This document shows positions 3,111 to 11,520 of a DNA stretch of 61,728 bases, one piece after another. Made by a program: the position numbers and the translations under genes. The notes below the pieces were generated by a model. The model was not told the origin of the DNA. It saw only the letters and a program-made list of their open reading frames with translations, and ran no database searches. The stretch is taken from contig CANQRW010000010.1 of NCBI GenBank assembly GCA_947626365.1, positions 1 through 61,728 of the forward strand, read 5' to 3'. The first letter of the stretch is position 1. The number at the start of each line of letters is the position of its first letter. The stretch comes from an uncultured Lachnospiraceae bacterium. GTDB taxonomy: Bacteria > Bacillota > Clostridia > Lachnospirales > Lachnospiraceae.

Positions 3111-3887
3111 TTAATGCCTGATCGCGTGATATTTTTTCAGGTTCCGATATGCGTACCAGCAGAAATAGTAAAAGGACTGAACCGGATTCAGTCCCATGAA
3201 ACGGTATACCCTATATGTCATGACCGCAGCCTTCTTCTTGTTGCCGGACTTGGACGACTGCGACAGGCGGTAAATCAGAAGCGGCTCGTTGATCCCGTAC
3301 GCATGACCGCCGTTCTTCAGGATCTGCAGCCAGACTGCGTAATCCTCATGCATGTCGTCATGCTCCATCGGATACTTTAAGACCAGCTCCTTCCGGACAA
3401 GAACGGAAGAACAGGATATTAGGTTCTGTTTCAGGAGTTCATGATAGGATATCCTTTCCGGGACCTCAAGATGGTAGTCCGCCGGTCTTCCGGAACTGTC
3501 TATAAACGCGCTTCCCGTGAACACAAGGTCCGGCATCCCGCCATTTGCCTGCTCGCCTTGTACCAGCCGCATCTGCCGTTCCAGTTTATCCGGCGTCCAC
3601 AGATCGTCACTGTCCAGGAAAGCGATCCAATCACCTTTCGCTTCACGGACTCCACGGTTCCTTGTACTGGAAACCCCTTGATTCTCACCATTCGTCAGGA
3701 TGACGATCCTTGAATCCTTCTCCCGGTAGCCCCGGACAATATCCGCAGTGGCATCACATGAGCAGTCGTTGATGATGATCAGCTCCCAGTCCCTGTATGT
3801 CTGTCCCAGTACGGAATCGATGGATTCCGATATGGAGGCTGCTGCATTGAATGCAGGCATTACGATACTTACAAGCCTTTTCCCCAT
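3111..3887 (-). CDS. family 2 glycosyltransferase
   Basis: The 258-residue protein has a GT-A fold of the GT2 family. It starts with the VSIVMPAFNA strand, has a nucleotide-binding IIINDCSCD segment near residue 36-44, and carries the metal-binding FLDSDDLW motif near residue 88-95. No membrane segment is obvious, so it is a cytosolic enzyme that adds one sugar to a lipid-linked polysaccharide repeat unit. It is the first gene after the terminator that closes the toxin-antitoxin pair. In this locus its transcription therefore depends either on a promoter in the 57 bp upstream, which I do not see, or on read-through by the LoaP-like antiterminators. Donor and acceptor sugars cannot be predicted. 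Confidence 0.9.
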   Translation of the reverse strand: MGKRLVSIVMPAFNAAASISESIDSVLGQTYRDWELIIINDCSCDATADIVRGYREKDSRIVILTNGENQGVSSTRNRGVREAKGDWIAFLDSDDLWTPDKLERQMRLVQGEQANGGMPDLVFTGSAFIDSSGRPADYHLEVPERISYHELLKQNLISCSSVLVRKELVLKYPMEHDDMHEDYAVWLQILKNGGHAYGINEPLLIYRLSQSSKSGNKKKAAVMTYRVYRFMGLNPVQSFYYFCWYAYRNLKKYHAIRH

Positions 3888-4046: not shown

Positions 4047-4343
4047 TTAATAATCAAATATCCCCTGGATCGCATCCGTCACATCTATGATCATCTCATA
4101 AGGAATCCTGTCAATCCTCTTAAATCCGCGGTACCGCAGATCGACCAGACGCATCTGCTCGCATAAGACTGTCCCTTCCACTTCTTCCGTCTTAATCGCG
4201 ATATGCAGCGGATCCGGAAAGGTATCTTCCACGATCGGACAAAGAATCGCCTGCTCCGTCAGGTTAAAGAAATTCTTACTGGCGATCAGGTAACAGCCTT
4301 TTAAGCCCTCTGCTTTGATGATATCACCTTGCTCTATGGCCAC
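4047..4343 (-). CDS. PemK/MazF-family toxin
   Basis: A 98-residue protein of the MazF/PemK/CcdB-like fold, usual length for the family. It begins with the QGDIIKAE strand, as in MazF proteins (GDI/V motif), and has the conserved VLCEQMRLVD stretch near residues 57-66, which in MazF carries part of the RNA-binding surface. Active members are mRNA-specific endoribonucleases that stop translation. The gene starts 3 bp after the stop of the upstream antitoxin and ends before a strong terminator, so the pair is a compact bicistronic unit. Pairing a MazF-type toxin with a Phd/YefM-looking antitoxin is a shuffled combination that occurs in Firmicutes. Toxicity is inferred from family only. Confidence 0.8.
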   Translation of the reverse strand: MAIEQGDIIKAEGLKGCYLIASKNFFNLTEQAILCPIVEDTFPDPLHIAIKTEEVEGTVLCEQMRLVDLRYRGFKRIDRIPYEMIIDVTDAIQGIFDY

Positions 4344-4346
4344 CGG

Positions 4347-4727
4347 CTACCACCTCTCTCTCCCGACAGGCTCGCCCCAGTCAAACTCCTCATAAGGTCC
4401 CAGCTTTCCGCCAAAATCCTCCGCCCGTTCTTCCAGAGTGCGGTGCCGTCTCGATACTGCAGTATCTTCTTTCTCTATATCCGGTATTTTTTCCCATTCG
4501 CTCATCGATGCCAGCCCTTCTTTGTCTTTTTCCTTTTCTGCATTCCGCAGCTTCATAAACAACTGATACGCTGTACGGTATCGATCCAGCCTGTCGATCT
4601 CCTCCATCGTAAGTATGCCATACTCTCCATGGCCGTTCCTCGTCAGATATACACGGTGGAACGTATCCACTTCTTTTAATACCTCAGAGTAATTTCTCAG
4701 ATCTGATATCGGTTTAATATTCGGCAT
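4347..4727 (-). CDS. Phd/YefM-like antitoxin
   Basis: This protein has an N-terminal segment resembling the Phd/YefM DNA-binding fold (KPISDLRNYSEVLKEV, then VYLTRNGHGEYGILTMEE), followed by a charged, poorly ordered C-terminal half that would wrap the toxin. I place the start at the ATG at 4725-4727 because AGAGG lies 8 nt upstream of it; an in-frame GTG at 4736 and ATG at 4733 are too close to that site. The product is then 126 residues. It is read from its own promoter with an overlapping palindrome, as expected for an autoregulating antitoxin, and is followed after 3 bp by the MazF-type toxin. Confidence 0.75.
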   Translation of the reverse strand: MPNIKPISDLRNYSEVLKEVDTFHRVYLTRNGHGEYGILTMEEIDRLDRYRTAYQLFMKLRNAEKEKDKEGLASMSEWEKIPDIEKEDTAVSRRHRTLEERAEDFGGKLGPYEEFDWGEPVGRERW

Positions 4728-4748
4728 GTTCATCACCTCTCTGCCTTG

Positions 4749-4858: not shown

Positions 4859-6220
4859 CTACATCTCCGGCTCCTTCGTCGCCGTCGTCTGCCCTACAGC
4901 GATCCCTTCCGTACTCTCCGGCATGAACAGGATCTTCACTGTTGAGAACATGATCCTCAGGTCCTCCACGATACTCGGATGGGCCAGGTACATCAGATCC
5001 ATCTGCAGCTTGTCATAGGGCTCCGTATTGTACTTCCCGTACACTTGGGCGTAACCCGTCAGACCGGCTTTCCCTTTCAGCCGCAGGGCGAATTCCGGAA
5101 GTTCCTCCATATACTGGGCCGCGATCTCCGGCCTCTCCGGCCTCGGGCCTACGATGGTCATCTCGCCTTTCAGGATATTGAACAGCTGCGGCAGCTCGTC
5201 GATCCGGCATTTCCGGATAACGCGCCCTACCGGCGTGATCCGGTCGTCATTGCTGCCCGCTGATAACCTGGCGATCCCGTCCTTCTCCGCATCCACCCGC
5301 ATGGAACGGAACTTCATCACATAGAACTCCCGGCCATCCTTCGTCAGGCGTTTCTGACGGTAGAACACCGGTCCTCCGTCCACCGCCTTTATAGCTGCAG
5401 CTGTGACCGCCATGAAAGGCGATGCAATGACCAGCGCCAGTCCGGCTATGACGATATCCATCGCTCGTTTCAAGATCAGATATTCCGCAGGCGGATTCTG
5501 CCACCCCACGTTTAGGATCGGCAAGTGCAGCATATGCATCTGCTTCGCCCCGCTCATGATGGTGTCACCGATCCTGGGGATCACATAGATCTCGATCCCC
5601 TGGGCGATACATCTCTTCAGGATAAGGTTCCGCTCATGGCTGTGCACGCCGCTGAGGAACACGACCTCCATCCCGCCCAGTATCCCCGGATCGTCCAGAT
5701 ACTCGGCTACGCCGGCCGTCACCAGGATATCAAATTTCTTTCGCAGTCCGTACTCGCTGACCACTGTCTCCAGCCCCGGCCGCTTATCATAGATCACCGC
5801 CGACCGTTTCGGCGGAAATACGGCAAAATACCATAACCTTGCTATGTAAGTCCAGACAGCCGCCAGGATGATCTGGCTGATAAAAGCCAGCAAAAGCGGC
5901 GCCGGATGTGGGATATGTTTTGTCAGCAGATAGGTCACCACATACAGGATCCCATCTGCGATAAACGCGGCCAGCGCCTGGCTGTAGACCAACTCCGCCA
6001 TCCGGCTGATGGAGATCAGGAAGGCGTCATAAATCTTACAGTATGCCATATAGATGACAATATACAACGCGATAATGGCCCAGTTTCCCTTATTAAAGAA
6101 CGGCGCGGCTGTCCGCGGTGCGTAGTACAGATACCAGCACACAGAAAAAGGGACCGTGAGCAATAAGATATTGAACATCTTCATTACCCGTAGTCCCAGA
6201 TCATGTTTCACATCTGTCAC
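4859..6220 (-). CDS. polyprenyl-phosphate sugar-1-phosphate transferase (priming glycosyltransferase)
   Basis: The 453-residue protein is an exopolysaccharide initiating transferase. Four to five hydrophobic segments lie in the first 145 residues, then a CoA-binding-like region, then another membrane segment near 255-275 and the catalytic bacterial sugar transferase domain with KFRSMRVDAEKDG near residue 315, RKCRIDELPQLFNILKGEM near 350 and the GPRPERPE motif near 372. It moves a sugar-1-phosphate (often galactose or a N-acetylated deoxyhexose) from a nucleotide sugar to undecaprenyl phosphate and so starts each repeat unit at the membrane. Translation appears to begin at a GTG with AGGAG 10 nt upstream. 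It follows the second LoaP-like gene by 50 bp and is the first biosynthetic gene controlled by the switch. Confidence 0.92.
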   Translation of the reverse strand: MTDVKHDLGLRVMKMFNILLLTVPFSVCWYLYYAPRTAAPFFNKGNWAIIALYIVIYMAYCKIYDAFLISISRMAELVYSQALAAFIADGILYVVTYLLTKHIPHPAPLLLAFISQIILAAVWTYIARLWYFAVFPPKRSAVIYDKRPGLETVVSEYGLRKKFDILVTAGVAEYLDDPGILGGMEVVFLSGVHSHERNLILKRCIAQGIEIYVIPRIGDTIMSGAKQMHMLHLPILNVGWQNPPAEYLILKRAMDIVIAGLALVIASPFMAVTAAAIKAVDGGPVFYRQKRLTKDGREFYVMKFRSMRVDAEKDGIARLSAGSNDDRITPVGRVIRKCRIDELPQLFNILKGEMTIVGPRPERPEIAAQYMEELPEFALRLKGKAGLTGYAQVYGKYNTEPYDKLQMDLMYLAHPSIVEDLRIMFSTVKILFMPESTEGIAVGQTTATKEPEM

Positions 6221-6270: not shown

Positions 6271-6993
6271 CTACCCAATCGCCCTCATGGGCTTTTCCTG
6301 TCCCTTGTACTCTCCCGGCACCACCATCAGCCTTCGAATCTCCCGATAGTTCTCTTTTCCCTCGCTGTCCTTTTCAATCTCCAGGAGCGAATAAGCTTCC
6401 GACGGTTCTGCCGTTATTTCCTGCCCATCGCAGACCAGACCGCGCTCCATATCTTCATTCAGGACGATTCCCAGGGCAATGGTTCGGTCCTCGCCCCACA
6501 ATTTTTTATAGACTTTGGCGAACCGTTTGCGGAATTCGATTCCATCAATATCAGACAGGCAGCCAGCCAGCGGGCCGGACACACGGTATATTTTTGCGCT
6601 TTCCTGCAGTCCGGATGGTCCATCTGTGCTGCCGTCTTCCTTCAGCATCTGGGACAGACGGACCACATGATCAGACCCGGATATCCGCTCCAGAAAACGC
6701 GCATCCTTTTCCATCAATGGGAACATGGAAAGATATCCCATGGCAATCAGTCTGGACATGGCAGGAATCTTCTCCAGCCGGCGAAACAACGGCTCTGTCT
6801 CCCTGCAGGTCATAAAAACATATCCTTTGAACAGAGGTTCCGGATGAAGGATGCTTCGGCCTTGTCTCCGCCAGATTCGTTCATTATAGATAACAAAAGC
6901 TTCCTCGTACAGGTAGGGAGGCACAGTCCGGCGAATCTCCTCCACCAGCTCTTCCTCCCGACCCTGCCAGGTTTTCAGCAGATACCACAGCAT
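6271..6993 (-). CDS. NusG/LoaP-like transcription antiterminator, KOW-less paralogue
   Basis: A 240-residue relative of NusG N-terminal (NGN) domains: it opens with MLWYLLKTWQGREEELVEEI, has PGYVFMT-equivalent FKGYVFMT near residue 62, and the segments RVSGPLAGC and FRKRFAKVYKKLWG seen in the adjacent paralogue. I chose the start at 6993 because GGAGGG sits 8 nt upstream; a reading frame extends to 7068 without a good ribosome binding site. The C-terminal part lacks the recognisable KOW sequence found in the neighbouring paralogue, so it may not couple to ribosomes or Rho in the usual way. LoaP and UpxY relatives load on RNA polymerase at capsule and secondary-metabolite operons and suppress terminators. 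This copy could be a second antiterminator or a competitor of the first. Confidence 0.8.
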   Translation of the reverse strand: MLWYLLKTWQGREEELVEEIRRTVPPYLYEEAFVIYNERIWRRQGRSILHPEPLFKGYVFMTCRETEPLFRRLEKIPAMSRLIAMGYLSMFPLMEKDARFLERISGSDHVVRLSQMLKEDGSTDGPSGLQESAKIYRVSGPLAGCLSDIDGIEFRKRFAKVYKKLWGEDRTIALGIVLNEDMERGLVCDGQEITAEPSEAYSLLEIEKDSEGKENYREIRRLMVVPGEYKGQEKPMRAIG

Positions 6994-7121: not shown

Positions 7122-8042
7122 CTATGCCACTGTTTTTCTCACACATTCCAGAGGTACTTCCATCGTTGTATCGCGTCCGAAGAAATGTACTCCTATCTTC
7201 ACTTCGTGTTTCCGAATCTGATATACCATAGCCGGCATACCGGCAAATACGCCGCTGACTACCGTCACCCTGTCGCCGGCTCCAAGCTCTGCTGTGTCTT
7301 CCGGGCTTCCGTTCCCGGCCCCCTGCATGTTTTTCCGATCTCTGACCCCCGGCAGGTTTCTCCGATCTCCAGACTCCCGTAGGTTTTCCTGATTTTCGGG
7401 CCTCTGCAGATTTTTCCAATCTCCGGCCCCCGGCATATCATCCGAACTGTCCGGCTCGATTTCCGGAATCCGGTACCGCTCCGGCACCCGAATCGGCGCT
7501 TCCACTTTTCCATATGCCAGTTCCCTGCATACGTCATCCCGCAAAATGATTCCCAGACGGATATGTTTCTCCTCACCGGCCAGAGTCAGCCGAACCGCCG
7601 CAAAACGTTTCCGGAACTGATAATTCTCAATTCTGGACAGGCAGGACCTAAGCGGTCCGGACACATAAGCGACATGGTCCCTCCCGTCTGTCTCCACGTA
7701 AGAAAGCCTTATGACATGCTGTTTGTCCAAAATCTCCTCCAGGACGGCCGCTTCTTCTGGCGCAAGGGGCAGAAAAATATAGGTCCCATCGGAAATCAGC
7801 TTCGACATGGCGGGAACATTTTTCAGGCAGAGAAACAGCCGGTCCGGCTCATCGCTGGTAATGAACACATAGCCGGGGAAAACCCTTTCGATATGGATCT
7901 GGTTTTCCTGCTGCCTGTGCCTCATCTGCTCATGGTATGTCACAAAACATTCCCCATACAATTCCTTCGGGACAATCCGGCGGATCATCTCCACCAGCTT
8001 TTCTTCTTTCCCCGTATAGGTCTGAATCACGTACCACAACAT
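7122..8042 (-). CDS. NusG/LoaP-like processive antiterminator with repeat-bearing linker
   Basis: The protein has an NGN domain (MLWYVIQTYTGKEEKLVEMI, then FPGYVFITS near residue 63, then SGPLRSCLSRIENYQFRKRF) and a C-terminal KOW domain (AGDRVTVVSGVFAGMPAMVY near residues 258-277). Between them is a linker of nearly 9-residue repeats rich in Asp, Arg and Asn. I place the start at 8042 because NusG proteins begin with this WYV strand; an in-frame extension to 8201 exists and the ribosome binding site at 8042 (AGAGG, close spacing) is modest, so the start is uncertain. LoaP-class proteins bind elongating RNA polymerase and a leader RNA hairpin and allow read-through of terminators along long polysaccharide operons. 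It is the first gene next to the invertible promoter segment. Confidence 0.85.
   Translation of the reverse strand: MLWYVIQTYTGKEEKLVEMIRRIVPKELYGECFVTYHEQMRHRQQENQIHIERVFPGYVFITSDEPDRLFLCLKNVPAMSKLISDGTYIFLPLAPEEAAVLEEILDKQHVIRLSYVETDGRDHVAYVSGPLRSCLSRIENYQFRKRFAAVRLTLAGEEKHIRLGIILRDDVCRELAYGKVEAPIRVPERYRIPEIEPDSSDDMPGAGDWKNLQRPENQENLRESGDRRNLPGVRDRKNMQGAGNGSPEDTAELGAGDRVTVVSGVFAGMPAMVYQIRKHEVKIGVHFFGRDTTMEVPLECVRKTVA
7308..7437. repeat. 27-bp tandem repeats inside the LoaP-like gene
   Basis: Four full units (7308-7334, 7335-7361, 7362-7388, 7389-7415) and a partial fifth, sharing CCGATCTC near the start of a unit and a T-run at its end on the plus strand. The unit is a multiple of three, so copy-number change would lengthen or shorten the NGN-KOW linker by nine residues without frameshift. 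Confidence 0.8.
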
Positions 8043-8207
8043 AGCCTCTGCTGCCCCTTTCCGCTTCTTTTTGCGCCTCTGCCTGACAATAAGCCGGATT
8101 TGTCTCAAAAGGGTAAGCTTCGCCATTCCGCCCCGCCTTGACACGGCACGAATACCGAATACCACTGCCAGCACATCTGATATCTGCATGCGCAAACACA
8201 CGCAGAC

Positions 8208-8219: not shown

Positions 8220-8314
8220 ATCTCAGACTACGCTGTGGCCGTTATGACCCCTTTCAGGAAACCGCTGCCGCAAGACCCACGAATTCCGTCCCGGTTTTGT
8301 GTGAAGCAATCTTT

Positions 8315-8338
8315 TGTCGCAGAGTATCATACTCTACG
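8315..8338 (+). repeat. left inverted repeat of the invertible segment (IRL)
   Basis: The 24 bases are the exact reverse complement of 9768-9791. Outside it, similarity stops at once on the left; inside it, only scattered matches continue. The AGAGTAT and ATACTCT arms around one central base are the likely recombinase core-binding half-sites. Confidence 0.92.
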
Positions 8339-8345
8339 GCGGAAG

Positions 8346-8382
8346 CCGGGAATTTTCCCATTTTTAAGGAAATTCCCGGGCT
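8346..8382. other. imperfect hairpin inside the switch, 3' of the recombinase gene
   Basis: Arms beginning CCGGGAATTT and ending AAATTCCCGG can form a stem with one bulge. It sits 10 bp after the recombinase stop but has no T-run on either strand, so it is not a convincing intrinsic terminator; it may stabilise the recombinase mRNA or weaken read-through toward LoaP. Confidence 0.5.
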
Positions 8383-8391
8383 TATGACGGC

Positions 8392-9555
8392 TTATTCTGA
8401 CGGCTTATAATTTGAAAACAGCTCAGAGAGACGCTGCATGTTTGCCCTCTTTAAATCCATAGAAGGGTGAACATAACGGTTCATAGTAATGTTCACGCTG
8501 GCATGCCCCAATATCTCGCTGAGACTTTTGACATCAAAATTCATCTCCACACAGCGGGTGGCAAACGTGTGCCGAAGAACATGATAATTGATATCTTCGA
8601 GTTTCGCTTCCTGAAGAACACGTTTAAAATGACGCTGCATGGTCCTGGGTTCAATGTAAAAGCTTTCTCTTCCGGTCAGGACGTAGCCATTCCTTCCGTT
8701 TCGGAATTTCACTAAGACGTTCATCAATTCACCGACAATAGGGATTCTCCGGATCGAACATTTGCTTTTGGGAGTGGATATTATTATTTCCGTTTTTTTG
8801 CCTGTCCGGCGCTCGGTTTGAATCCGCTGCATGGTCTGATGGACATAAATTGTCTGCTCGGCAAAAGAGATGTCTTCCCATTTCAGGGCGCAGATTTCAC
8901 CGATACGCAGCCCTGTGAACAGACAGATTAGAATGCCAAGATTCTTGGAATCCATGTTGGAATGAAGATACCTGCAAAGCTGCTCCTGCTCATTTCTGCT
9001 TAAAATACGCAGTTCTTTGGATGTTCGTTTTACAAATACAGAAGAAACATCGCAGGGCGGCCGGTAGCCATGGACAGAAGCATGCCGAAAAGCGCTGCGG
9101 ATCAGCGACATGGTGTCCGCTGTGGTTTTGGATGAAAGACCCTTCCCCTTTCTTCCTCCCGAGGCCAGCATTTGGCTGCAGAATGATTCAAGGATGTCCC
9201 GGTTCAAATCGTTCCAGTTGATATTTCCCAGAACAGGAAGTATGTAGCAGTTTATGATATTTCGGTATTTTACATACGTAGATTCTTTGATCTGATGTCT
9301 CCTGCTGTTCAGCCAGTCTGCCAGGATATTGCCGAACTTGATATTGCTGACAGGCGCATCTTCTGCTTTCAAAGGCTCAAGGATATACCTGTGCAGCGCC
9401 TGTTTCTGGTCATTCAGTTTCTTTTTTGTCTCCCGGTAGGACTTGGCATATACATAACCGTAGTGACATTTTCCATCCGTCCTACGGCCTTTGATGTATC
9501 TGCCTTCCCATCGCCCATCTTTTCGGATATAAATGTTTTCTCCCTTTTTTGCCAT
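8392..9555 (-). CDS. tyrosine recombinase (DNA invertase/integrase)
   Basis: A 387-residue integrase of the Tn916-like size class. It has an N-terminal arm-binding-type domain (about 1-55, IRKDGRWEGRYIKGRR), a SAM-like core-binding domain (about 65-165) and a catalytic domain with the tetrad: Arg in TGLRIGEICALKW near residue 217, HVLRHTFAT near 320, LGHAS near 346 and the nucleophile Tyr in NRYVHP near 357. AAGGAGG lies 9 nt upstream of the start. It is the only gene inside the inverted repeats and is therefore the obvious enzyme for the inversion. No excisionase or other mobile-element genes adjoin it, which argues against an integrated element and for a dedicated switch. Since the gene inverts with the segment, its own transcription context changes with each flip. 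Confidence 0.93.
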   Translation of the reverse strand: MAKKGENIYIRKDGRWEGRYIKGRRTDGKCHYGYVYAKSYRETKKKLNDQKQALHRYILEPLKAEDAPVSNIKFGNILADWLNSRRHQIKESTYVKYRNIINCYILPVLGNINWNDLNRDILESFCSQMLASGGRKGKGLSSKTTADTMSLIRSAFRHASVHGYRPPCDVSSVFVKRTSKELRILSRNEQEQLCRYLHSNMDSKNLGILICLFTGLRIGEICALKWEDISFAEQTIYVHQTMQRIQTERRTGKKTEIIISTPKSKCSIRRIPIVGELMNVLVKFRNGRNGYVLTGRESFYIEPRTMQRHFKRVLQEAKLEDINYHVLRHTFATRCVEMNFDVKSLSEILGHASVNITMNRYVHPSMDLKRANMQRLSELFSNYKPSE

Positions 9556-9593
9556 AACTCAATTCCTCCTTTTCCTGCGGTCGAAAACTGACC

Positions 9594-9646
9594 ACGATTT
9601 TGACGGCTTATATACTTCTATTAACAAGTATAAATACCAAAATCGT
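9594..9646. promoter_or_regulatory. nested palindrome upstream of the recombinase gene
   Basis: Outer arms ACGATTTTG (9594-9602) and CAAAATCGT (9638-9646) enclose inner arms TATACTT (9611-9617) and AAGTATA (9626-9632). One TGACGGCTTATA copy lies between the left arms. It could be a regulatory binding site or a leader hairpin of the recombinase mRNA. Confidence 0.6.
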
Positions 9647-9701
9647 AGGGCGACATAGTATCTTGAGGTTAATTTTACCTTCTCTTTTTCTTCCCATCTT
9701 A

Positions 9702-9730
9702 TTGACAAATGGACTATTCTCTTGTAAAAT
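9702..9730 (+). promoter_or_regulatory. invertible promoter (TTGACA-17-TAAAAT), now facing away from the capsule locus
   Basis: TTGACA at 9702-9707 and TAAAAT at 9725-9730 with the optimal 17-bp spacer make this the best sigma-A match in the region. Transcription would start near 9737, 30 bp before the right inverted repeat. As drawn, there is no gene ahead of it on the plus strand and it meets the terminator at 9804-9853. After inversion the same promoter reads through the left repeat toward the LoaP-like gene, with a leader of a little over 300 nt. Confidence 0.9.
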
Positions 9731-9767
9731 TCCATTGAATGAAGATAATAACGTCTTCTGAGGCTGT

Positions 9768-9791
9768 CGTAGAGTATGATACTCTGCGACA
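9768..9791 (-). repeat. right inverted repeat of the invertible segment (IRR)
   Basis: Exact reverse complement of 8315-8338 over 24 bp. It starts 37 bp after the -10 box of the outward promoter, so the promoter and transcription start are inside the segment and move with it. Confidence 0.92.
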
Positions 9792-9803
9792 TTTTTCAGG
9801 CAC

Positions 9804-9853
9804 AAAAAAGCCGTGAAAAGCGGAACTGAATGCTCCGTCTTCCACGGCTTTTC
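9804..9853. terminator. bidirectional intrinsic terminator of gltX and of the switch promoter in the OFF state
   Basis: Arms AAAAGCCGTG (9806-9815) and CACGGCTTTT (9843-9852) with further inner pairing. There is a six-T run after it in the leftward direction (gltX) and a four-T run in the rightward direction, so it can stop both transcripts. Confidence 0.85.
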
Positions 9854-9889
9854 CTATCACACAACATATTCTTTTTACGGCGTCCGAAG

Positions 9890-9998
9890 TCCCTCGCGCC
9901 CCGGCCTCGCAGCGCCTTTCCGGAGTCCCTCGCACCTCCGGCTTCACAGCGCCTTTCCAGAGTCGCCTACGCCTCCAGCTTCTCAATGCCTTTCCGGA
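9890..9998. repeat. 36-37 bp tandem repeats continuing the 3' end of gltX
   Basis: Three diverged units at 9890-9925, 9926-9962 and 9963-9998 share GCCTTTCC near the end of each. The third is the coding end of gltX with its stop; the other two lie beyond the stop codon and look like decayed duplicates of the terminal codons. Confidence 0.7.
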
Positions 9999-11418
9999 TT
10001 CTCCTCAGGGACTCCTCCTTGCCCAGCACCTCCATGATCTCCGTGGCGCCGGCCGGCGTCATCTGCTTGCCGGATGTGGCGGTGCGGATAGGCCACATGA
10101 CGAAACCTGTCTTATAACCTTTCTCATTTATATAGGTTAACAAGGCTGCATAGAGGGCGTCGTTGGAATAGTCCTCCTGGGCCTCCAGAATGGGCAGCAC
10201 TTCTTTCAGCACCTGAAGGGAAGTTTCCCTGGTACTCTTCATCTTCTTATGGCAGAACATTTCCGTATCGTACTCCGGCAGTTCCTGGAAGAAATCGATG
10301 TGTCCCTCGATATCCGGCAGAACTTCGATTCTGGTCTTCACCATGGCGGCAATCTTCCTCAGATCCAGATCCCTGGTGATAACCTTCTTAAGATACGGCT
10401 CTGCCATCTCATAGAACCGGTCAAAATCCATGGCCTTCAGGTATTCCCCGTTCATCCATTTCAGCTTGGTCACATCAAACACGGCCGGGGACTTGCTGAT
10501 GCGGTGATAGTCAAAAGCCTCCACCAGCTCCGGAAGGGAATAAATCTCCCTGTCCTCTTCCGGGGACCAGCCCAGAAGAGCCACGAAATTCACTACAGCC
10601 TCGGTAACAAAGCCCTGCTCGATCAGATCCTCGTAGGAGGAATGACCGCTCCGCTTGGAAAGCTTTTTGTGCTCCTCATTGGTGATAGTGGGACAATGGA
10701 CATACACCGGCACCTCCCAGCCAAATGCCTCGTAGAGACGGTTGTACTTGGGGGAGGAGGACAGATACTCGTTGCCGCGGACCACATGGGTGATGCCCAT
10801 CAGGTGGTCGTCCACCACATTGGCGAAATTGTAAGTAGGATAGCCGTCGGATTTGATCAGGACCATGTCATCCAGCTCGGAATTGTCCACGGAAATATCG
10901 CCGTAGATCTCGTCATGGAATGTCGTAGTTCCTTCCGTCGGATTGTTCTGACGGATCACATAGGGCTTTCCGGCCGCCAGATTGGCCTCGACCTCTTCTT
11001 TGGACAGATGGAGACAGTGTTTGTCGTAGGTCATGATCTCCTCGCCGTTGACCGTCCGCTTCAGGGAATTCAGACGGTCCTGGTCGCAGAAGCAGTAATA
11101 AGCCTCTCCCTTGTCAATCAGCTTCTTGGCGTATTCCAGGTAGATTCCCGCCGCCTGGCGCTCACTCTGGACGTAAGGACCTACTCCCCCGTCCTTATCC
11201 GGACCCTCATCGTGGATCAGGCCGGTCCCCTGAAGAGTCCGGTAGATAATCTCCGTGGCTCCCTCCATGTACCGTTCCTGATCTGTGTCCTCAATCCGCA
11301 GGAGGAAATCTCCTCCCTCATGCTTCGCGATCAGATATGCGTAAAGTGCCGTCCTTAAGTTGCCCACATGCATTCTTCCTGTGGGGCTTGGCGCAAATCT
11401 TGTTCTTATCTTTGTCAT
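9967..11418 (-). CDS. gltX: glutamyl-tRNA synthetase
   Basis: A 483-residue class I aminoacyl-tRNA synthetase that attaches glutamate to tRNA-Glu (and possibly tRNA-Gln, if no GlnRS exists). The HIGH-type signature is [13 protein letters not shown] near residues 7-19, and the KMSKS-type loop is [10 protein letters not shown] near 245. Length is usual for the bacterial family. I start it at the ATG at 11416-11418, which directly precedes [13 protein letters not shown] and has GGGAG upstream; the frame continues 14 codons further without a ribosome binding site. It is monocistronic, read toward the invertible segment, and ends before the bidirectional terminator that insulates it from the switch. 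Confidence 0.97.
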
Positions 11419-11520
11419 GGCAATTCTCCCTGTGTTATATTTGAAAATAGCTGAAATCAATCATTATCCATGATACCCTTTACCGCCCAAAAATGCAATG
11501 AATTTTGAAGAAAATAATAT

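Follow-up and report, generated by a model that had tools for sequence, protein, structure and literature searches.

The 61,728-nt stretch analysed here (the window; contig CANQRW010000010.1 of an uncultured Lachnospiraceae bacterium, assembly GCA_947626365.1) carries a 1477-bp segment at positions 8315–9791 that is, with high probability, a phase-variation switch operating by promoter inversion, present in the OFF orientation. The segment, to which no strand is assigned, contains a tyrosine recombinase gene and a promoter, and is recognised from its inverted repeats, from 40 comparable segments in 14 genomes and from orthologous loci in opposite orientation. It lies between gltX and a polysaccharide locus that begins with two genes for LoaP-like antiterminators. 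The case for inversion comes from comparing orthologous loci between genomes, and switching within populations of this organism is put forward on that basis as a proposal only.

The two arms of the repeat (8315–8338 and 9768–9791) are 24 nt each and 100% complementary, and form the longest perfect inverted repeat in the window for arms 50–2000 bp apart; ten shuffled sequences gave 12–15 nt. Extended by 3 nt each, they become 27-bp near-palindromic sites of the form TGTCGYAGAGT-5-ACTCTRCGACA. The left, LoaP-side crossover site (8315–8341, + strand) has the spacer ATCAT, two mismatches to the consensus and no outward T-run; the right site (9765–9791, + strand) matches the consensus fully and has the spacer ATGAT, the complement of the left one. 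The promoter within them (TTGACA-N17-TAAAAT, 9702–9730, + strand) matches at 11 of 12 positions, and inverted repeats flanking a promoter-bearing segment are what defines an inverton. Promoter-like sites number 5 across the region and 3.4 in shuffles, and since the region is no richer in them than shuffled sequence, the evidence for this promoter is its conservation: TTGACA-N17-TANNAT occurs in 38 of the 40 segments. A near-palindrome, AGGTTAATTTTACCT, is aligned upstream of it (9666–9680, + strand), and smaller segments elsewhere in the genome share it as AGGTTAATATTACCT. An earlier, sequence-only reading had proposed this 24-bp perfect repeat around a tyrosine recombinase gene and a consensus promoter; its coordinates were right, and the promoter position it gave for the flipped state (8376–8404) agrees by arithmetic. 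A further strong inverted repeat, identified by eye (GCCGGGAATTTTCC/GGAAATTCCCGGGC, 8342–8379), separates the left site from the stop codon of the recombinase gene; while the switch is OFF, it may curb transcription running on from that gene into LoaP.

The recombinase gene (8392–9555, − strand) is divergent from the promoter and encodes 387 amino acids in an intact, full-length open reading frame (ORF). The protein matches Pfam PF00589 (Phage_integrase, E 2.3e-27) and PF14659, and aligns with the Int chain 6en0_A over the catalytic region, spanning TGLRIGE, HVLRHTFATR and LGHASVNITMNRYVH. The R..HxxR..H..Y residues are present in these stretches, and we take them to be catalytic in this enzyme. 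Its closest named relatives are in uncultured Lachnospiraceae metagenome-assembled genomes (MAGs) labelled 'Lapin'. Relatives at 34–39% identity also occur in Enterococcus genomes (L084, L085, L086, L088).

The 40 segments compared, the window's included, are 39 site pairs plus one with a weaker site (L126). A recombinase gene lies within the sites in 26, and in all 26 it is divergent from the promoter. In 29 segments a LoaP-like gene is found less than 1 kb away, and in three more (L094, L096, L102) the leader of such a gene is present and the contig ends before the gene itself. The remaining eight precede other surface loci, namely a CpsB operon (L093), sugar transferase operons (L092, L100, L112) and the loci L116, L117, L124 and L125. 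In these last four the segment bears a recombinase gene and is followed by a small ORF (182–186 aa) and then by a gene for a giant, secreted-looking protein; the L125 protein, the only one of them searched, has FctA pilin-like domains.

Three orthologous loci were seen in both orientations, between genomes and within collinear flanks. The segment of L111 (genome G010, OFF) aligns from 1124–2568 to 9593–8149 of L123 (G017, ON) on the opposite strand at 89% identity, and the flanks of the two align on the same strand at 84–90%; L118 (G015, OFF) and L115 (G012, ON) represent the same locus. At a second locus, L100 is OFF and L112 is ON, and the segments are 92% identical. The third is the gltX locus of the window (OFF), for which L091 (G011) is the ON counterpart: the gltX and LoaP flanks are collinear (roughly 69–82% identity in long matches) and the promoter end is reversed, with just 93 nt of the segment alignable, the L091 segment being promoter-only and 379 bp long. 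The view that a LoaP-led polysaccharide locus in the window has an invertible promoter, OFF as assembled, is strongly supported by L091, where the promoter faces LoaP, and by the two further loci.

A search of the same genome (3.5 Mb, 144 contigs) for further copies of the repeat, a check proposed in the sequence-only reading, revealed the site at five loci: C10 (the window) and four that had not been mentioned there, C27, C55, C57 and C7. There are two sites each at C10, C27, C55 and C57, and one at C7, at a contig end. Each pair at C27, C55 and C57 bounds a segment of about 390 bp that lacks a recombinase gene; these small segments are 93–95% identical, and their promoter is nearly the same as that of the window. 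Each has two LoaP-like genes on one side, followed at C27 and C57 by a sugar transferase gene, while the C55 contig ends soon after them. Among these four loci, only C55 has its promoter pointing towards LoaP; at C27, at C57 and in the window it has the opposite orientation.

Two classes of recombinase, distinguished by eye, are a well-supported addition to this picture. Class 1 has an N-terminus beginning GENIYxRxDGRWEGR (the window, L095, L098, L129, L020, L102 and L108), which the second class lacks; no enclosing site pair was found for the genes of L020, L102 and L108. Three copies of the repeat TGACGGC, putative accessory (arm) sites, are present in the window segment (8385–8391, 8398–8404 and 9601–9607, all + strand). 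The motif was picked after the sequences had been seen, and in its relaxed form TGACGGY at least two copies occur in 16 of the 18 segments with a class-1 recombinase or none, versus 1 of 22 with the second class (Fisher 4e-8); for strict TGACGGC the counts are 14/18 and 1/22. We take these repeats to be accessory binding sites of the class-1 N-terminal domain. Pfam named no domain at this N-terminus, even at E 1; its likeness to arm-binding, AP2-like domains is a presumed one.

The window recombinase very probably flips the three promoter-only segments as well. Such trans-action is likely because these segments share its sites and because it is the only homologue found in the genome at E 1e-20 (13 candidates were scored, 12 of them under that level). 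A trans-acting regulon, proposed from this co-occurrence, is a second well-supported addition. The cassette had been called self-contained, which is right in that recombinase, sites and promoter are in one segment, but falls short for an enzyme that probably also serves three promoter-only segments with the same sites. The other possibility is that a more distant recombinase flips the small segments and the window enzyme serves its own segment alone. Tyrosine recombinases more distant than E 1e-20, the limit of the homologue search, could do so, and in G010, G012, G016 and G017 every paired segment analysed has its own recombinase. We nevertheless consider this unlikely: sites and TGACGGC repeats are common to the window segment and the small segments, and promoter-only segments occur in six genomes (G000, G011, G015, G018, G019, G020), each of which has a class-1 recombinase, in three of them (L020, L102, L108) outside any site pair found.

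The promoter in its present orientation had been thought to point at the gltX terminator. A hairpin does lie there (9806–9852), 76 bp past the −10 box, but a nearer terminator-like site had been overlooked, as the right crossover site together with five T residues (9765–9796, + strand) forms a hairpin with a 12-bp stem (site RNA about −16 kcal/mol) just past the OFF-oriented promoter. Taking a T-run as at least 5 T among the first 8 bases outward of a site, one is present on the non-LoaP side in 27 of the 29 LoaP loci and on the LoaP side in none (0/29; Wilcoxon 2e-6). A-runs outward of the sites are absent on both sides (0/29 and 0/29), so the T-run is strand-specific, and the T fraction is 0.72 in the first 8 bases and 0.30 beyond them. 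Inward of the arms, T-runs occur in 4/38 and 1/38 cases, against a local background of 5.8%. The RNA of the 27-nt site has a mean folding energy of −13.5 kcal/mol (range −6.0 to −18.3, 40 segments), and the distance from promoter to site is 28–36 bp. The T-run lies outside the segment and therefore does not change sides in ON loci.

That the crossover site doubles as an OFF-state terminator is well supported by these patterns, and since a hairpin-forming site and a T-run follow the promoter, the OFF transcript should be short. Weighing against this are L007 and L099, which have only 4 T of 8 and no T-run, and L102, where the LoaP side is known from the leader alone and has 5 T against 6 on the other side. 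The T-run might instead be an AT-rich spacer or part of the terminator of the neighbouring gene, with no role in the switch, and a separate hairpin is indeed already present on the gltX side of the window. However, its one-sidedness, strand specificity and restriction to the first 8 nt, and its retention beside quite different neighbours in 27 of 29 loci, make this explanation unlikely.

Across the LoaP loci the promoter faces LoaP (ON) in 5 of 29 and away from it (OFF) in 24 of 29 (binomial p 5e-4 against equal odds), a split that is a rough guide because the loci share ancestry and a MAG contig shows whichever state is commoner. At most one locus per genome is ON, and mutual exclusion was considered; shuffling gives the same result in 45% of cases, and no claim is made. 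The OFF excess could be read as the trace of fossil switches, inverted in the past and now locked OFF here, or differing between species by rare events only. The left window site speaks for this as well, with its departure from the consensus at two outer bases, outside the core, so that the segment could be locked OFF. On the other side, the recombinase ORF is intact and full-length, the central 14 bp of the arms are identical within the 39 pairs while the outer bases vary, homologous segments of one genome are in different orientations, and MAG contigs display the majority orientation only; we regard a fossil switch as improbable. That the segment is a mobile tyrosine-recombinase cassette with inverted ends, inserted beside gltX and carrying its promoter incidentally, can be set aside almost entirely, for although the enzyme is of the integrase type and related in sequence to the Int of an integrative element (6en0), and the same locus exists with and without a recombinase gene (window versus L091), 38 of 40 segments have a promoter of the same form close to the same arm, LoaP or another surface gene lies downstream, opposite orientations occur between collinear flanks, and inverted recombination sites generally favour inversion over excision.

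Tyrosine recombinases need sequence identity between the crossover regions, and the central 5 bp of the sites is equal in both arms in all 39 pairs, a set that was chosen without requiring matching cores; mismatches between arms are confined to the outer columns. The cores differ in all 53 within-genome comparisons of paired loci. In this genome they are ATCAT, GCCAT, GTCAT and GGCAT, and that of the unpaired site is GACAT or its complement. As crossover regions must be identical, loci served by a common enzyme would be shielded from one another by their different cores, each core being in effect the address of its locus. This idea is suggestive only, because just 0.79 shared cores would be expected from the pool (0/53 observed), a neutral simulation with a star tree and the three alike segments of this genome gave 0.053 (0.009 with the fifth, unpaired site), and shared cores do exist among unpaired sites, which counts against it, in two genomes (G012, C22/C171; G015, C192/C240). 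In each case the two may be opposite ends of a single switch that was split. Evidence for selection on the core is weak. Crossover sites are also found at contig ends (G000:C7:2, G012:C162:2, G012:C171:1, G019:C10:3 and G293:C48:1), as expected if the assembly was interrupted by repeated segments or by the presence of both orientations.

On the ON side of the switch, the first LoaP-like gene of the window (7122–8039, − strand) passes the NCBIfam LoaP model NF033641 (131 bits on 7122–8069, cut-off 125) and scores 43 bits with the UpxY model (cut-off 100), which places it outside the UpxY family. Its start is more likely the ATG near 8039 than the GTG of the ORF at 8201. The homologous first genes of L007, L006 and L008 score 113.5, 106.1 and 111.9 bits, under the LoaP cut-off. 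A second LoaP-like gene (6271–6993, − strand; 83 bits with NF033641) follows, as it does in 27 of the 29 loci, the contig ending in the remaining two, and the second genes (three tested and that of the window) score 63–83 bits. In alignment, several members of the first group have a further C-terminal KOW-like region, which the second protein lacks. The second protein was considered as a UpxZ-like inhibitor, and this was dropped; structure models of the two proteins were poor (mean predicted local distance difference test, pLDDT, 56.5 and 59.9). A complete absence of KOW domains from it was likewise considered and abandoned, since what it lacks is just the KOW-like C-terminal extension seen in the first protein.

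Upstream of LoaP is a conserved leader of about 70 nt, ACAAAACCYGGAYG..TCGTGAGCCT....GGGGTTATARCGGCC, present at 29 loci (L095 included), with its core in the window at 8271–8299 (− strand). The core occurs at four places in the genome, each a switch locus, and the leader in 14 of the 26 genomes of the genus, exactly the set that bears the site; as the pattern was derived from the loci of these genomes, its presence there is partly circular, an objection that does not apply to the 12 genomes lacking it. An Rfam search with the leader matched no known RNA family. RNAalifold, run on 14 of the 29 leaders, gave a weak consensus fold in which 4 of 16 pairs have two-sided changes. The leader may be a LoaP loading element, and terminator read-through after a flip is predicted from membership of the LoaP family and from leader conservation. 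It is a point against this that RNAalifold found no clear UNCG hairpin in those 14 leaders, unlike known LoaP targets.

The site is present in 14 of 26 genomes of the genus, and 13 of the 14 have a recombinase match at E ≤ 1e-120. Two findings fit the switch less well: G021 (83% complete) has two sites and no recombinase match at 1e-30, and the promoter-only segments L092 and L093 have neither the strict promoter nor the repeats. Among the 12 genomes without the site, nine have a recombinase homologue at 1e-30, with at most 39% identity. Three such homologues from site-less genomes (L031, L032 and L033; 36–39% identity) lie between inverted sites that are similarly built but of another sequence, TTTCG...CGAAA. 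Enzyme and site seem to change together, because the site-less genomes hold distant homologues and three of these lie between sites of this other kind. Across 397 sampled genomes of the family, four have the exact site; the present genome and G017, which belongs to its genus, account for two of them.

The polysaccharide genes begin with a polyprenyl glycosylphosphotransferase gene (4859–6220, − strand; Pfam Bac_transf, E 1e-61), and a family 2 glycosyltransferase gene lies at 3111–3887 (− strand; Pfam E 4e-36). Between the sugar transferase and a glycosyltransferase, within the operon at 4047–4736 (− strand), are a PemK/MazF-like toxin gene (Pfam E 2e-8) and a weak Phd/YefM-like antitoxin gene under the Pfam cut-off. 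The OFF-side neighbour is gltX (9967–11460, − strand; Pfam tRNA-synt_1c, E 2e-98), which is convergent with the OFF promoter. Three imperfect 27–37-bp tandem copies are present at 9883–10001, beside the 3′ end of gltX.

Taken together, the data suggest a scheme in which the recombinase encoded within the segment would exchange strands at the two inverted 27-bp sites and so invert 1477 bp. With the switch OFF, its promoter would fire towards gltX, and the transcript would end within a few tens of bases at the site hairpin and T-run. In the ON state transcription would cross the other site, where a T-run is lacking, and continue into the leader, LoaP, the second LoaP-like gene and the polysaccharide genes, and LoaP would then probably let the polymerase pass the terminators of the operon. 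The same recombinase would flip the three promoter-only segments that precede LoaP genes at other loci of the genome, and the 5-bp core, alike within a pair and unlike between loci, would confine recombination to each locus. The site would then have three jobs, with its conserved halves binding the recombinase, its core serving as the address and its hairpin silencing the wrong-facing promoter. Labour would be divided between the two classes, class 1 reading TGACGGY repeats through its N-terminal domain and acting on promoter-only segments, and the other being tied to its own segment. That the switch itself is real, and of a known kind, is very likely; the address role of the core is the weaker part, if an attractive one. 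The full scheme, in which one recombinase inside its own invertible promoter runs a genome-wide polysaccharide regulon through a site that is binding sequence, address and terminator at once, and two classes divide the work, is tentative, and its chances fall a little short of even.

Among known inversion systems, Hin/Gin-type segments have the invertase gene and a promoter inside the inverted DNA. Hin is a serine recombinase, as is Mpi of Bacteroides, and RecV of Clostridioides difficile is of the tyrosine type. The window resembles Hin/Gin in that the recombinase gene lies inside the DNA it inverts, and differs in the use of a tyrosine recombinase. As in the polysaccharide operons of Bacteroides, a gene for a NusG-family antiterminator is found here first in the operon, behind an invertible promoter. 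The system is not a member of the Mpi/UpxY switches, because its antiterminator is LoaP and not UpxY and its recombinase is of the tyrosine type, but it matches them in logic. It is further set apart from B. fragilis by a recombinase inside its own segment, an OFF-side T-run by the site, other site sequences and another phylum. In the accounts of Bacteroides consulted, invertible promoters precede polysaccharide operons beginning with upxY, and the PSA–PSH switches of B. fragilis likewise comprise several polysaccharide operons per genome, each with an invertible promoter and a NusG-family antiterminator first (PMC10939037; PMC11892184). The nearest published system encountered is inverton group 139 of Clostridia, with invertase group 35; these too are invertons linked to a nearby tyrosine-type recombinase, and their inversion was measured in reads (PMC11892184). 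Compared by description only, group 139 may be identical or related to the switches found here; the sections describing it name no LoaP link, site sequence or terminator role (PMC11892184). The cwpV/RecV switch of C. difficile is similar in that inversion occurs upstream of a surface gene in Clostridia and the OFF state is attributed to an intrinsic terminator located where the repeat forms its junction; as described, its promoter lies beyond the segment, and it is transcription of the surface gene itself that the terminator stops (PMC2784873), whereas here the promoter is inside and the terminator is on the side away from the operon. The LoaP of Bacillus velezensis is similarly a NusG paralogue positioned to antiterminate a long operon via a leader element; here the leader lacks a clear UNCG hairpin and a second LoaP-like gene is present, and inversion does not feature in the description available for B. 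velezensis (PMC12691694). A search of open-licence literature returned no paper joining LoaP to invertible promoters or to tyrosine recombinases.

The locus appears to be a Lachnospiraceae version of the Bacteroides capsule logic built with different components, and this suggests that bet-hedging at the cell surface evolved convergently. Two ideas that follow from it are testable: that crossover-core addresses let one recombinase serve several loci without scrambling the chromosome, and that a recombination site can act as an OFF-state terminator. Site, leader and promoter also provide sequence handles for scoring the ON or OFF state of surface loci in metagenomes. If the scheme is true, one enzyme may reshuffle the polysaccharide coat of the cell.

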